Counted from the stretch's first letter, positions 38,475 to 45,057 are shown. The stretch: DNA of 45,180 nt from an uncultured Clostridia bacterium (GCA_947627945.1 CANQYC010000002.1:1-45180), one strand, 5' to 3'. The notes: generated from the letters alone by a model not told the origin. Program-made: numbers and translations.

Positions 38475-40430
38475 ATGAAACACACATTCCGCCGCACCGT
38501 TGCGGTACTTGCAGCAATGGCGTGTGCATCTCTGGGTCTGCCGGTGGCAGCAAATGCGGAGTTCACCTTGCAGGACGGGGAGACGCTCATCTATGGCACG
38601 GACTTTGAGGACGGCGATGTCTCTGCATTCTCCAAGCGTGGGGATACCGATACATCGGTCATTTCCGCCGGCACGGATGAGACGGCACCGGACGGAGCAG
38701 GCGTCATGCTCGTCACAGACCGTTCCAGCAGCTGGAATGGTCCGCAGATCGCCGTAGAAGACTACTGCGATCCCGGTGTCAAGTATGCTGTCTCTGTCTG
38801 GGTCAAGGCACCGTGGTACAACACCTGCACCCTCAGCATGCAGTACACCGATGCAGAGGGCACTGACCACTACAGCAACCTCGGTTCTGCGGTGAGCCAG
38901 GGAGACTGGGTGCAGATCCCCGAGGTGCAGTTCAGCTATTCCGAGGACATGAAGAATGTCTACATCTACGTGGAAAGCAGTGACACCACAGATCTCTATG
39001 TGGACAGCTTCTGCCTCAAGGCTGCCAAGGTCTATGAGCCGGAGGATGACATCCCCGGACTGAAAGATGTCTATGCAGACTATTTCAAGATCGGCGGTGC
39101 CGTGACGGCTGCCGAGCTTGCGCCGAATGCTACGAAGCAGCTGATCCTGAAACATTACAACAGCATCACGCTTGGCAATGAGCTGAAACCGGAAAATATG
39201 CTCGATCAGGCAGGTTGTCAGGCAAATGCTGCCGCAGGCAATCCCGGTGAAGTCGCTGTTTCCCTCAACGGGCAGGCACGCACCATCCTCAATTTCTGCC
39301 GTGACAATGACATCCCCGTGCGTGGGCATGTGCTGGTATGGCACTCGCAGACGCCCGGCTGGTTCTTCAAGGATGACTACACCAAGGAGGGCGAATGGGT
39401 CGATAAGGAGACCATGCTTGCCCGTATGGAAAGCTACATCAAGGGCGTCATGGAGGTACTTGCCGAGGAGTATTCCGATGTGGACTTCTACGCATGGGAT
39501 GTCGTAAACGAGGCATGGCTGGATGACGGCAGCTACCGTACCGGCGGCATGTATGACGACAATGCGAACGCTTCCGGATGGGTACAGGTATTCGGCGACA
39601 ATTCCTTTATCCCCTATGCCTTTGAGTATGCCCGGAAGTATGCGCCCGAGGGATGCAAGCTGTACTACAATGACTACAACGAGTATTCTGACGGCAAAAT
39701 GAAGGCGATCGTCCAGATGGCGACCGAGCTGAAAGAAAAGGGACTCATCGACGGCATCGGCATGCAGTCGCATCTCGATGTACGCACAGGTCCGGATGCC
39801 TATCCCTCTGTCAATGCCTATATCAAGGCACTGGATACCTACACCGCACTTGGTCTGGATGTACAGATCACAGAGCTGGATGCGACCGTACCGGAAAATT
39901 CCGGCGATCAGTACTTTGAGCAGCAGGCACAGTATTACAGTGACCTGATGGATGCCATCGTTGCCCATAAGGACAGCATTTCCGCAGTGGTATTCTGGGG
40001 TACGACAGATGATACGAGCTGGCGCAGCACCAAGTCTCCGCTGCTGTTCAACGGCGACTATACCGCAAAGCCCGCTTACTATGCCATCATTGACGGACTG
40101 GCAGAGGTCGTTCCGACAGAGCCGGGCGGGGAGACCACCGAGGCTCCTGAGACCACAGAAGCACCGGATACCACCGACGAACCGACCGACGAACCCACCG
40201 AGACCACACCGCTTGCAGGCAAGCTGGGAGACACCAATGTTGACGGAGACATCACCATTCTCGATGTGATCCAGCTCAACAAGTACCTGCTTGGCGATAC
40301 TTCCGCAGTCGGAGATGAGGGTCTGGCAAATGCCAATGTAGATGGCAACGGGACGATCGATGCGACGGATTCCCTGTGGATCCTGAAATACTGCGTTCAG
40401 CTGATCAGCGATTTCAGCGAGCAGGGCTGA
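38475..40430 (+). CDS. Endo-1,4-beta-xylanase: signal peptide, CBM22-like module, GH10 catalytic domain, Thr/Pro/Glu linker, type I dockerin
   Basis: GH10 motifs HVLVWHSQTPGWFF, WDVVNEAW, ITELDA; dockerin repeats GDTNVDGDITILDVIQLNKYLLG and ANVDGNGTIDATDSLWILKYCV. Confidence 0.94.
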   Translation: MKHTFRRTVAVLAAMACASLGLPVAANAEFTLQDGETLIYGTDFEDGDVSAFSKRGDTDTSVISAGTDETAPDGAGVMLVTDRSSSWNGPQIAVEDYCDPGVKYAVSVWVKAPWYNTCTLSMQYTDAEGTDHYSNLGSAVSQGDWVQIPEVQFSYSEDMKNVYIYVESSDTTDLYVDSFCLKAAKVYEPEDDIPGLKDVYADYFKIGGAVTAAELAPNATKQLILKHYNSITLGNELKPENMLDQAGCQANAAAGNPGEVAVSLNGQARTILNFCRDNDIPVRGHVLVWHSQTPGWFFKDDYTKEGEWVDKETMLARMESYIKGVMEVLAEEYSDVDFYAWDVVNEAWLDDGSYRTGGMYDDNANASGWVQVFGDNSFIPYAFEYARKYAPEGCKLYYNDYNEYSDGKMKAIVQMATELKEKGLIDGIGMQSHLDVRTGPDAYPSVNAYIKALDTYTALGLDVQITELDATVPENSGDQYFEQQAQYYSDLMDAIVAHKDSISAVVFWGTTDDTSWRSTKSPLLFNGDYTAKPAYYAIIDGLAEVVPTEPGGETTEAPETTEAPDTTDEPTDEPTETTPLAGKLGDTNVDGDITILDVIQLNKYLLGDTSAVGDEGLANANVDGNGTIDATDSLWILKYCVQLISDFSEQG

Positions 40431-40477
40431 GTCTGGCATTTTTGTCAGATCTATGAACACAGGACATGCAAAAACAG

Positions 40478-40514
40478 ATACAGGCTGTGCCATATGGTGC
40501 AGCCTGTATTTTTC
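40478..40514 (+). terminator. Intrinsic terminator after the xylanase gene
   Basis: ATACAGGCTG...CAGCCTGTATTTTT. Confidence 0.75.
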
Positions 40515-40598
40515 TGAAAAAAGTAGTGACAAACCGGAGAAAATATGATATAATAAAAACAGATCACTCTGCCTGCGGCAAAAGGAGGACGGGACAAC

Positions 40599-43553
40599 AT
40601 GAAAAATTGGGCAGGAAAGCTCCTGCTGTCATGCCTGATGTGTGCTATTGGCATTGCTGCGGTGCTGACCGGCATCGTGTACTTCAATTACATGTCCGAA
40701 CAGATCAACCAAGACAGCACCGTCCATCTCGAGGAGATCTACGGACAAGTCAATCGCTCCTTTGGCGCGTTTGTGGAGGAGAACTGGGGACTTCTTGACA
40801 GCTGGGGCGAGAATATCAGTATGATGCAGGAGGATGACAGCGTTCCTGCGTATATTTCCGAAAAGAAAGAAACATGGGGCTTCTCCGACTTCTACTTCCT
40901 TTCCTCGGAGATGGACTGCATGACCCCGGACGGGGCACAGAGCAGCATCGTCATGGACAGCGACTGGGATCGCCTGCTGACGGAGCGGCAGCCGGTCATG
41001 GCAGGGGAACGCCTGCCGGACGGAAAGGATGTCACGGTCTTTGCCGTCCCTGTGGCGCACCGGGAATATCAGGGCTTTGGCTATGATGCCATCGCCGTCA
41101 GCTATACGAATGCCGATCTGGCAGCGTCCCTTGATGTCACTGCATTTTCGGGAAAGTCCCGCTGCTTTGTCATCCACGAGGACGGGAGCGTGCTGCTGTC
41201 TACCCAGAACGGCGGGAATGTGTTCGACAACTATCTGACCTATCTCGATGCGGCTTCCGATCTGGAGGAGGAGCAGTTTTCACAGATGAAGCGTGACTGG
41301 CACGAGGGAACATCCGGACTGATCCGGTGTCATTTCCAGTCGGTCAGCTACTGCATCCTCTATCAGCCGCTCGGCTATCAGGACTATATCATGCTCTGTA
41401 TCGTGCCGCAAAGTGCGGTCAGTGCGGGATTCCTCTCCGTCCAGAAAACGACCGCCAATGTCCTGCTCGTGGTCTTTCTTGCCGTCGGCATCTCTGCGCT
41501 GGCACTGTTCCTGATACGCAGCAGCAGCCAGTCGAGAAGGAGCCGTCTCGAGCTGCAATACCGGGAGCGCATGTTCGATGTCCTTTCGGGCAGCGTGGAT
41601 GACATCTTCATCATGCTGGGCGATGCGTACCGCAGTGTGGACTATGTCAGCCCGAACATCGAACGCCTGCTCGGCATCCCGGTGGAAGAAGCCCGCAGGG
41701 ATATCCGTGTCATGGAAAAGTGCGCAGTGGGCGACAATGTCCTGATCCCCAAGGAAGAACTGGATGCGATCCCCCTGCACGGCAGCTCTGTCCACGAATA
41801 TGAGTATATGCATCAGCATACCGGGGAACGCCGCTGGTACCGGATGACGGTGTATCATATGCAGATACAGGAAATGACAAAATACATCATCGTCCTGTCC
41901 GACCGCACGCAGGAGCGGCAGATGAACCAGAAACTGCAGGAGGCACTGACTGCCGCCAGAAGTGCCAATGAGGCAAAGAGCAACTTCCTTTCCAATATGT
42001 CCCACGATATCCGCACGCCGATGAATGCTATCGTCGGGTTTTCCGTCCTGCTCGAAAAGGATGCAGACAAGCCGGATAAGGTGCGGGAATACACCCGCAA
42101 GATCACTGCTTCGAGCCATCATCTGCTCAGTCTCATCAACGATGTGCTTGACATGAGCAAGATCGAAAGCGGCAAGACTTCGCTCAATGTCGAGCCGTTC
42201 TGTCTGCCGGAGCTGCTTGAGGAGCTGCATATTATCCTCCTGCCGCAGGCAAAGGCAAAGCATCAGGATCTTCGCATCCATGTACAGGGTGCGCCCCCGG
42301 AGCAGCTCGTGGGCGACAAGCTCCGCCTCAACCAGATCCTGCTCAATCTGCTGTCCAACGCCATCAAGTATACACCGGAGGACGGGCATATTGATTTCCT
42401 CATCAGTGAACTGTCCCAGAAAACGCCGCAGTATGCAAGGCTACGGTTTGTCGTGAAAGATGACGGCATTGGTATCAGCGAGGAATTCCAGAAGCATATC
42501 TTCTCGCCGTTCAGCCGGGAGATCAATTCCGTGACCAATAAGATACAGGGCACAGGTCTCGGCATGGCGATCACCAAGAATCTGGTCGATCTCATGGGCG
42601 GTATCATCCGGGTGGAGAGCGAGCCGGGGAAGGGGAGTACCTTCACCGTGGAGATGTCCTTCCTGCTCGCCGAACAGGACGATACCGAGCAATGGTTCCG
42701 CCAGAAGATCCACCGGGTGCTGGTCGCAGATGATGAAAAGGACATCTGCACGGACATCCAGCGGCTGCTGGGAGAGGCAGGCGTGGAGGTCGTGTATGAG
42801 ACGGACGGTGCTGCCGCCGTCGAAACGGCAGTGCATGCCCATGAGACCGGTGCGGATTTTGATGTCATTCTGCTCGACTGGAAAATGCCGGGTCTGGACG
42901 GTGTCCAGACTGCACGCAGCATACGGGAACAGATCAAAAGGCATGTGCCCATTCTGGTGCTGACTTCCCACGACTGGAGCGACATCGAGGACGAGGCACG
43001 CCGGGCAGGCATCAATGCGTTCCTGTCCAAGCCGTTTTTTGCCTCCAGTTTCTGGCTGACGCTCAAACCGATGTTTGAGGCAGAGGAGACCGCAGCACCG
43101 GAAAGCCCTGAGGAGAACATCATGCAGGGCAAGCTGTTCCTTGTGGCAGAGGATAATGAGCTGAACGCCGAGATCCTCACGGAAATGCTGCATATCGAGG
43201 GTGCCGAGTGTGAAGTCGCCGTCAACGGGCAGGAGGCTGTGGAACGGTTCCTGCATGCAGAGCCGGGGCATTTTGACATGATCCTGATGGATGTCCAGAT
43301 GCCTGTGATGAACGGCTATGATGCCACACGGCAGATCCGCAGCAGCTCTCACCCGGAGGCACGCACCATCCCCATTGCCGCCATGACTGCCAATACCTTT
43401 GCCGAAGATGTGCGCAACGCCATAGATGCCGGCATGGACGGACATCTCGCAAAGCCCATTGATATGGCAGCGGTCAGGGAGCTGACCGCAAAGCTGCTGC
43501 GCCGGCAGGGCGCAGAGACGCCGGCGCAAGACAACAAAGGAGGGTCTCCATGA
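40599..43553 (+). CDS. Hybrid sensor histidine kinase with extracytoplasmic (Cache-like) sensor, PAS, HisKA, HATPase_c and two C-terminal REC domains
   Basis: SNMSHDIRTPMNAIVGF (H box), DDGIGISEEF/GTGLGMAITKNLV (N/G boxes), VLVADDEKD...VILLDWKMPGLDG and FLVAEDNELN...MILMDVQMPVMNG. Confidence 0.93.
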   Translation: MKNWAGKLLLSCLMCAIGIAAVLTGIVYFNYMSEQINQDSTVHLEEIYGQVNRSFGAFVEENWGLLDSWGENISMMQEDDSVPAYISEKKETWGFSDFYFLSSEMDCMTPDGAQSSIVMDSDWDRLLTERQPVMAGERLPDGKDVTVFAVPVAHREYQGFGYDAIAVSYTNADLAASLDVTAFSGKSRCFVIHEDGSVLLSTQNGGNVFDNYLTYLDAASDLEEEQFSQMKRDWHEGTSGLIRCHFQSVSYCILYQPLGYQDYIMLCIVPQSAVSAGFLSVQKTTANVLLVVFLAVGISALALFLIRSSSQSRRSRLELQYRERMFDVLSGSVDDIFIMLGDAYRSVDYVSPNIERLLGIPVEEARRDIRVMEKCAVGDNVLIPKEELDAIPLHGSSVHEYEYMHQHTGERRWYRMTVYHMQIQEMTKYIIVLSDRTQERQMNQKLQEALTAARSANEAKSNFLSNMSHDIRTPMNAIVGFSVLLEKDADKPDKVREYTRKITASSHHLLSLINDVLDMSKIESGKTSLNVEPFCLPELLEELHIILLPQAKAKHQDLRIHVQGAPPEQLVGDKLRLNQILLNLLSNAIKYTPEDGHIDFLISELSQKTPQYARLRFVVKDDGIGISEEFQKHIFSPFSREINSVTNKIQGTGLGMAITKNLVDLMGGIIRVESEPGKGSTFTVEMSFLLAEQDDTEQWFRQKIHRVLVADDEKDICTDIQRLLGEAGVEVVYETDGAAAVETAVHAHETGADFDVILLDWKMPGLDGVQTARSIREQIKRHVPILVLTSHDWSDIEDEARRAGINAFLSKPFFASSFWLTLKPMFEAEETAAPESPEENIMQGKLFLVAEDNELNAEILTEMLHIEGAECEVAVNGQEAVERFLHAEPGHFDMILMDVQMPVMNGYDATRQIRSSSHPEARTIPIAAMTANTFAEDVRNAIDAGMDGHLAKPIDMAAVRELTAKLLRRQGAETPAQDNKGGSP

Positions 43554-44797
43554 AAGGGAAATTGATATGGCTGCTGTCCGCCGTGACCGCAGCTTCCTGC
43601 CTGACTGCCTGTGTTCCCAGCAGTGAAACAAATGGCATTACACTGACGCTCATGGGAAAAAAGAGCGATCTGAACAAGAGCTACATGACCAGTATATTTG
43701 AGCAGTATGAGACCGAGACCGGCAACAAGCTGAACATCATCGCCTATGAGGATGCCGAGTTTGAATCCGCCGCCATGGAGCAGATGGAAACCAAAAATGC
43801 GCCGGACATCCTCCTGCATTTCCACAATGCAGATCTGGCGCAGTTCGACGTGGAGAACCGTTTTGTCGCCCTGAATGACCAGAGCTGGACAGCAGATCTC
43901 ACAGACAGTGCCCGTGCCTACTGCACGGACAAGGACGGCGATCTGCTCGGGCTCCCTTTCTGGGAAAGCTCCGTGTCCGGCTGTTATTACAACAAGACGA
44001 TCTTAGATGACCTCGGACTGAGACCCGCCACAGCGCAGGCGGAGTTCGATGTACTGTGCGAGGCACTGAGCGAGACCGGCTATACACCCATCTGCTGGCC
44101 AGCCAATGGCTGCTCGTGGATGATGCAGTTCGGGCTGGATCCGCTGTTTGCGGATGATCCCGCCCGGCTGGAGCAGCTCAACAGCGGTGCCATCAACTAT
44201 GCGGACATCCCCGAAGTGACCGGCATGGTGCAGTGGGTCTCGGATGCGGCTTCCAAGGGATGGTTCGGGCAGAACTATCTCATGACCGGATGGGATGACA
44301 TCAGCCCGGCACTGGCGTCCGGCGATGCGGTGATGACATTTATCTGGGACACGTGGTTCTACACGGATTTTGAGAAGGACGGCACCTATACCATTGATGA
44401 TTTTGCCCTGATGCCGGTCTTTCTGAATACCGTGGACAGCGGTACCTATGAGGGCGGCAACCTGAATATGATGATGGTGACCAAGAGCAGCAAGCACCCG
44501 AAAGAAGCACTGGATTTCCTGGCATTCTGTGCGACGCCGGAGCATTACAATGCTGCCTTTGCGGGCGTTTCGACCATGAGCTGCTTCCGGGGACAGACCA
44601 CCAATATCCAGTCGAAGATGGTAACAGATGCCAGTGCGTCCATCGCTGCCAACGAGCGTGTTTCCACGGCATCCTCCCAGATCATCGGCTACAGCGCAGA
44701 GGATGTGGCAGAATCTTTCAATGAGATGTTCCGTGGGAACATCACCGTGGCAGAGTGCGTCGCAGAGATGGATGCCAAACGGCATGCGGCGTCCTGA
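43550..44797 (+). CDS. Extracellular solute-binding protein (family 1-like lipoprotein)
   Basis: Lipobox-like TAASCLTAC, SBP signatures (FEQYETETGNKLNI, GLPFWESSVSGCYYNKTILDDLGL); ATGA overlap with the kinase gene. Confidence 0.88.
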   Translation: MKGKLIWLLSAVTAASCLTACVPSSETNGITLTLMGKKSDLNKSYMTSIFEQYETETGNKLNIIAYEDAEFESAAMEQMETKNAPDILLHFHNADLAQFDVENRFVALNDQSWTADLTDSARAYCTDKDGDLLGLPFWESSVSGCYYNKTILDDLGLRPATAQAEFDVLCEALSETGYTPICWPANGCSWMMQFGLDPLFADDPARLEQLNSGAINYADIPEVTGMVQWVSDAASKGWFGQNYLMTGWDDISPALASGDAVMTFIWDTWFYTDFEKDGTYTIDDFALMPVFLNTVDSGTYEGGNLNMMMVTKSSKHPKEALDFLAFCATPEHYNAAFAGVSTMSCFRGQTTNIQSKMVTDASASIAANERVSTASSQIIGYSAEDVAESFNEMFRGNITVAECVAEMDAKRHAAS

Positions 44798-44854: not shown

Positions 44855-45057
44855 AGGGGGCACTTTTTTGCCAAAAGTGCCCTCTCCCCATGCAGGGAAG
44901 TGGGTCGTAGTAAAGGGGGTGCGGGGGTGGACCCCCGTAATAAACGCCCCCTCCCCATGCAGGGGAGAGGGTTGATCTTGTAGCAAAAGGGGGTACGGGG
45001 GTGGAACCCCCGTAATAAACTCCCCCTCCCCTTCAGGGGAGGGGGCGGGGGGAGGGG
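44855..45057 (-). repeat. Dispersed structured intergenic repeat, copy R5: about three compound units of about 72 bp (element orientation minus)
   Basis: CCCCCTCCCC-TTCA-GGGGAGGGGG (45022-45045), ACGGGGGT-GGA-ACCCCCGT, diverged repeats CTCCCCATGCAGGGGAG and CTCCCCATGCAGGGAAG, and GGGCACTTTT-TTGCC-AAAAGTGCCC. Confidence 0.88.

Follow-up and report, generated by a model that had tools for sequence, protein, structure and literature searches.

Near the end of a 45,180-nt contig from an uncultured Clostridia bacterium (GCA_947627945.1 CANQYC010000002.1:1-45180), which as a whole forms the window analysed here, a gene for a hybrid sensor histidine kinase overlaps one for a family-1 solute-binding protein (SBP) that carries a lipoprotein signal. 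Comparative sequence analysis suggested that the two proteins probably work as one receptor, with the SBP docking on the kinase sensor, and that the SBP is not part of an importer. In many gut Clostridia the pair is inherited, lost and moved together without a transporter, which makes the lipoprotein most likely the receptor of the kinase and not a component of a nutrient pump. The initial annotation of this DNA had already proposed that the SBP serves the kinase instead of a transporter, and this proposal gained support from permease-free synteny, co-occurrence of unlinked genes, the lack of an orphan permease in the carrier genomes inspected and co-variation of the SBP with the sensor. The pair comprises the following features.

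40599..43553, plus strand: hybrid sensor histidine kinase, 984 amino acids (open reading frame and Pfam; orthologs at 80/80 loci)
40686..41444, plus strand: extracytoplasmic dCache-type sensor of the kinase, residues ~30-282 (AlphaFold2 model and Foldseek)
41973..42656, plus strand: catalytic core, HisKA (H469) and HATPase_c (Pfam)
42717..43040, plus strand: receiver domain 1, phospho-acceptor D760 (PF00072)
43140..43481, plus strand: receiver domain 2, phospho-acceptor D898 (PF00072)
43550..43553, plus strand: ATGA stop/start overlap of 4 nt (the same 4-nt overlap in 39/85 pairs)
43550..44797, plus strand: family-1 solute-binding lipoprotein, 415 amino acids, lipobox LTAC, Cys21 (PF13416/PF01547)

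The conservation of the pairing was evaluated by a scan of GTDB r220 genomes, which returned 220 SBP relatives; the best 80 of them, 62-71% identical, were analysed as loci. At all 80, the gene immediately preceding the SBP gene, in the same orientation, encodes a kinase ortholog, with a few cut by contig ends, and the flanking genes beyond the pair differ at almost all of these loci. Over all SBP copies analysed, the kinase is adjacent in 85 of 91. The best 80 are annotated as Clostridia, Lachnospiraceae, Oscillospiraceae, Monoglobus and others, and all come from records named 'Lapin-...', a French name that points to a rabbit host; the rabbit link is not quantifiable, since the query probably shares this origin and the top ranks are therefore biased.

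Co-occurrence was further assessed in 391 genomes drawn evenly from the class, with cut-offs of E<1e-160 for the SBP and E<1e-100 for the kinase sensor; here and below, genome-wide statements rest on family searches. Both were found in an identical set of 14 genomes (Fisher p ~6e-26, uncorrected for phylogeny). The genes are adjacent in 12 of these carriers and lie on different contigs in G434 and G246, suggesting that selection keeps the pair even where the genes have separated. In a fifteenth genome, G470, the kinase is represented by a fragment at the edge of a contig, and the SBP search gave no match. Moreover, solitary SBP paralogs at five loci (L196, L197, L198, L199 and L200), which are 58-61% identical to the query and form one clade, have neither a kinase nor a permease as neighbour, and every host genome has the kinase. 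Kinases with more distant sensors, 28-37% identical (genomes G139, G107 and G389; loci L229, L230 and L231), likewise adjoin SBP-like lipoproteins; these are 617-635 amino acids long, some with weak matches to 5_nucleotid_C (5'-nucleotidase C-terminal). Separately, a second sensor-SBP pair is present in the window's own genome (G000:C12; L155:8582-11280, minus strand), in which the stop of a GGDEF membrane protein gene overlaps the start of a family-1 SBP gene by 4 nt. Homologs of this GGDEF-SBP pair occur in congeners, for example at L168.

The initial annotation had also stated that no permease follows within the window. This absence says little, as only 383 nt of the contig remain past the SBP stop, and relatives were therefore tested using a profile made from local permeases, applied to flanks of up to 8 kb on both sides of each copy. 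In the relatives the statement held, as permease genes occur near 6 of the 80 scanned loci, with an operon just upstream only at L066 and L091. The check called for at the outset thus found the pair to be syntenic without consistently adjacent permeases of ATP-binding cassette (ABC) transporters. In addition, among the 25 families listed per set for the immediate neighbours (71 upstream and 73 downstream), there was no permease or ABC-ATPase; the commonest upstream families occur three times each, and the commonest downstream family is a receiver domain (9/73).

The overlap of the SBP start codon with the kinase stop was confirmed (ATGA at 43550-43553), as were both reading frames. Transmembrane (TM) helices at residues ~7-29 and ~283-306 flank the sensor, and a weak PAS match, HisKA (residues 459-525), HATPase_c (572-686) and two intact receivers (REC; Response_reg in Pfam) follow the second helix. 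The AlphaFold2 model of the sensor has a dCache fold, with a predicted local distance difference test (pLDDT) score of 76, and Foldseek matched it to histidine-kinase and chemoreceptor dCache domains with E-values down to 1e-11. Two to three of the sensor cysteines C189, C244 and C252 are conserved. Both H469 and the REC2 aspartate D898 are kept in 80/80 aligned kinases, and receiver domain 1 is missing from 9/80 orthologs. These results agree with the initial description of an outer sensor, HisKA/HATPase and two REC domains; the PAS domain described with them is likely but weak, as the PAS_9 match (E=0.055 here, 8e-5 in an ortholog) is under the gathering cut-off in both proteins. A search for a DNA-binding domain in the kinase found none, as also stated originally, and the protein has no output domain of its own.

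Distance correlations over 78 SBP-kinase pairs linked the SBP to the sensor (r = 0.75) more closely than to the kinase core (r = 0.49) or REC2 (r = 0.31). The SBP-sensor partial correlation given the kinase core was 0.66, reached in 0/500 permutations, and was 0.53 when the whole cytoplasmic part was controlled for and close pairs were removed. Furthermore, the correlation of the sensor with its own kinase core (r = 0.57) was below that with the SBP.

The SBP matches SBP_bac_8 (1e-24) and SBP_bac_1 (8e-20) in Pfam. Its profile gave 14 matches in the PDB, mostly named sugar-binding proteins, and the top fold matches of its structure model, which is of middling confidence (pLDDT 69), are oligosaccharide SBPs. 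These profile and fold matches make an oligosaccharide a reasonable candidate for the ligand, and nothing firmer. The SBP cysteines C125, C145, C170, C182, C188, C327, C345 and C403 are each conserved in 95-100% of 91 sequences. The xylan-derived sugar first suggested as ligand was not supported, since a GH10 xylanase is 1 of the 71 upstream neighbours (in this genome) and is set apart from the kinase by a strong hairpin and a new promoter with 11/12 consensus matches, in a separate transcription unit. A GH35 beta-galactosidase gene lies directly beside the pair at L066, L068, L091 and L164, upstream in three cases and downstream in one, and at L066 and L091 the upstream operon is an ABC operon with the GH35 gene. 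Four loci are too few for a conclusion on the ligand.

Taken together, we propose the following mechanism. The tethered lipoprotein would load its ligand, probably of oligosaccharide type, and the loaded form would dock on the dCache-type outer domain of the kinase. Docking would then alter autophosphorylation of H469 and transfer to the receiver domains, in a direction that we infer. The phosphate may pass from the conserved second receiver to a stand-alone HPt protein and from there to an adjacent REC-HD-GYP regulator, and an external ligand would thereby alter cyclic-di-GMP breakdown.

The output step of this mechanism is tentative, and on genome content we put it a little short of an even chance. 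The initial annotation had noted that the output regulator is not visible, a point that now narrows to a candidate HPt/REC-HD-GYP module elsewhere in the genome. The HPt and REC-HD-GYP genes proposed for the relay are exemplified by L285:8835-9182 and by the gene starting at L285:9228, respectively. The single HPt match in G000 is a stand-alone gene beside a hybrid kinase gene and a REC-HD-GYP gene. A REC-HD-GYP ortholog, adjoined by an HPt protein of 116-146 amino acids, is present in 16 of 17 carrier genomes, and at five loci (L059, L061, L072, L099 and L102) no more than ~5 kb separates the HPt/REC-HD-GYP genes from the pair. The exception, G149, is without a REC-HD-GYP ortholog and without an HPt match; this absence may be an assembly gap, because its near relative G203 puts the region just past a contig end. 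HPt matches occur in 13/14 carriers versus 189/377 other genomes (p = 0.001). The same receptor could instead pass the REC2 phosphate to another regulator, a proposition that itself stands at nearly even odds. G000 has 26 receiver-domain matches, and the receiver domains among the downstream neighbours include one winged-helix regulator (L025). Nevertheless, no conserved regulator neighbour or cognate DNA-binding response regulator is consistently adjacent or within the operon at the loci examined, and this speaks for the HPt/REC-HD-GYP route, as does the near-constant presence of these genes in carriers.

Several points weigh against the SBP-kinase receptor and its proposed output. AgtS and AruS of P. 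aeruginosa, an SBP and a kinase encoded by neighbouring genes, showed no interaction (PMC11113362), and dCache domains can bind ligands directly. The SBP and the sensor both evolve faster than the cytoplasmic domains, which contributes part of their correlation, so that the co-variation is support, not proof, of contact. The HPt enrichment is moderate, with many matches of CheA size. Finally, the HPt/HD-GYP pair was counted in kinase carriers only, and it is likely a shared hub.

It is unlikely that the SBP is an ordinary importer part feeding a permease encoded elsewhere, with the kinase pairing reflecting co-regulated uptake. Family-1 SBPs do commonly use unlinked or shared permeases and ATPases, and CUT1-type permeases are present in G000 and many carriers. 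The ATPase of CuaABC is likewise encoded elsewhere (PMC10384115), and the ABC operon with GH35 just upstream at L066 and L091 fits such a role. However, most copies, and the solitary paralogs too, have no permease nearby, and it is the kinase, not a transporter, with which the SBP co-occurs perfectly. The 99% complete genomes G149 and G203 contain no PF13416 SBP other than the paired protein, and their permease genes, fetched with flanks, each adjoin another SBP-like lipoprotein gene; the inspected permease genes of G000 (81% complete) likewise adjoin SBP-like genes of their own. These SBP-like genes were called by position and sequence and confirmed in part by Pfam. An orphan permease was thus not seen in the three carrier genomes inspected (G149, G203 and G000), nor was the mark of a family-1 (CUT1) importer, a link to or sharing of a MalFG-type permease without its own SBP. 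The SBP could still share a permease that has an SBP of its own. Less likely again is that the dCache domain of the kinase itself senses the ligand, while the SBP captures or concentrates it at the surface without docking: in the closest solved structures, small molecules are bound by the dCache domain without a partner protein, and CuaSR without CuaD still answers cellobiose, less efficiently (PMC10384115), but the SBP co-varies with the sensor more than the sensor does with its own kinase core, and CuaD bound CuaS, whose outer domain when purified did not bind sugar (PMC10384115).

The receptor genes are probably transcribed as their own operon, for which the following signals were identified.

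40476..40511, plus strand: likely bidirectional terminator, a hairpin with a 16-bp stem and a 4-nt loop running into a T-rich stretch, between the xylanase and kinase genes
40526..40554, plus strand: predicted promoter of the kinase-SBP operon, GTGACA-17-TATAAT, with TG ahead of the second hexamer
40580..40589, plus strand: kinase ribosome-binding site AAAAGGAGGA (sequence reading)
43536..43544, plus strand: SBP ribosome-binding site AAAGGAGGG, within the kinase 3' end (sequence reading)

The xylanase stop at 40430 lies upstream of the hairpin, the promoter and the kinase. The hairpin folds with -25.6 kcal/mol (z = -6.15), a value equalled by 0/200 shuffles. It was not listed by a simple terminator scan, probably because the 16-pair stem extends into the T run. 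The promoter matches the consensus at 11/12 positions, with 0.2 such sites expected in shuffles, and in relocated copies of relatives homology begins at the equivalent kinase promoter. The hairpin and promoter between xylanase and kinase argue for a separate operon, and the ribosome-binding sites are strong ahead of both the kinase and the SBP. Downstream, the last frame at the contig end (45058-45180, minus strand) is convergent to the SBP gene, and repeated G+C-rich hairpin units occupy 44860-45045 between the SBP gene and this partial gene.

Comparison of close relatives indicated that the promoter-kinase-SBP unit may have relocated alone in some lineages, of which single cases may be misassembly. 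The loci L025, L026 and L030 are 86-90% identical over ~4.3 kb, from the kinase promoter to near the SBP stop, and their flanks are unrelated. Similarly, L089:4914-9242 and L099:4914-9242 share 98% identity between the promoter and the final codons of the SBP gene, again with unrelated flanks, and homology among L040, L057 and L060 is limited to the same unit; other sets of close relatives show full synteny. A segment at L040:2774-9348 contains a large serine recombinase of 539 amino acids, a small open reading frame and the kinase-SBP unit, and the gene that it interrupts is intact in L057 (around 4139). In addition, a recombinase remnant lies just upstream of the unit at L086, and a NikA-like mobilisation gene is nearby at L102. 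A plasmid origin was rejected, as the best rows gave only 22-26% matches. It is conceivable, though doubtful, that promoter, hybrid kinase and SBP form an autonomous mobile receptor cassette lacking an output, which changes locus and species among gut Clostridia and connects to a resident HPt/REC-HD-GYP phosphorelay hub. If so, a bare receptor would, unusually, be spreading unaccompanied by its output and providing an additional environmental sense for a new host.

The findings suggest that gut Clostridia have a form of SBP-assisted kinase sensing made up of two genes under a promoter of their own, without a transporter and without a regulator. If the HPt step is true, recognition of an external, probably sugar, ligand would be linked to cyclic-di-GMP. 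No description of a hybrid-kinase/SBP pair in Lachnospiraceae or Clostridia was found in the literature searched, subscription journals being mostly outside it.

Among known systems, LuxP-LuxQ of Vibrio shares with the pair a hybrid kinase with an outer domain of double-PAS type, a dedicated SBP and no transporter. LuxPQ relays to LuxU and LuxO, and a stand-alone HPt relay is the output proposed here, where HPt and hybrid kinase genes are both present; the regulator is a sigma-54 activator there and the proposed HD-GYP regulator here. LuxP is a ribose-binding-type SBP and not of family 1, whereas the SBP here matches PF13416/PF01547 and no other SBP family. Membership in LuxQ was rejected (equivalog score of 314 bits against a cut-off of 1200), as was membership in TorS (342 bits against 676.5). 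TorT-TorS is likewise a hybrid kinase with a dedicated binding protein, but its SBP family and regulator are unlike those here. In Gram-positive bacteria, XylFII-LytS(-YesN) of Clostridium beijerinckii and AraPST of Geobacillus present an SBP to a histidine kinase; they differ in having non-hybrid kinases, a separate DNA-binding regulator and linkage to the sugar transporter that they control.

CuaDSR is from Ruminiclostridium cellulolyticum, in which cellobiose sensing is improved by CuaD, a protein that binds CuaS (PMC10384115). It too is found in Clostridia and has a family-1 SBP lipoprotein of ~410 amino acids that is distinct from the SBP of the importer; the neighbouring class-I kinase has two TM helices and an outer domain (PMC10384115). 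In contrast to the kinase here, CuaS is non-hybrid, with a YesN/AraC regulator in the operon and the target importer next door (PMC10384115). Gene order also differs, being SBP-kinase-regulator in CuaDSR and hybrid kinase first, SBP second here, with no regulator or target genes adjacent. Thus, of the features of three-component SBP-kinase systems of the CuaDSR/XylFII-LytS type, the pair has an SBP gene fixed beside the kinase gene (80/80) and an SBP that is not the sole SBP of an adjacent importer, and it lacks a DNA-binding response regulator in the same operon. The pair resembles LuxPQ and CuaDSR in its working and has the full feature set of neither. Fixed pairing, unlinked co-occurrence, co-variation, the absence of a consistently adjacent permease and SBPs of their own beside the permeases inspected together make SBP-presented sensing, in the manner of LuxPQ and CuaDSR, the best reading of this locus.

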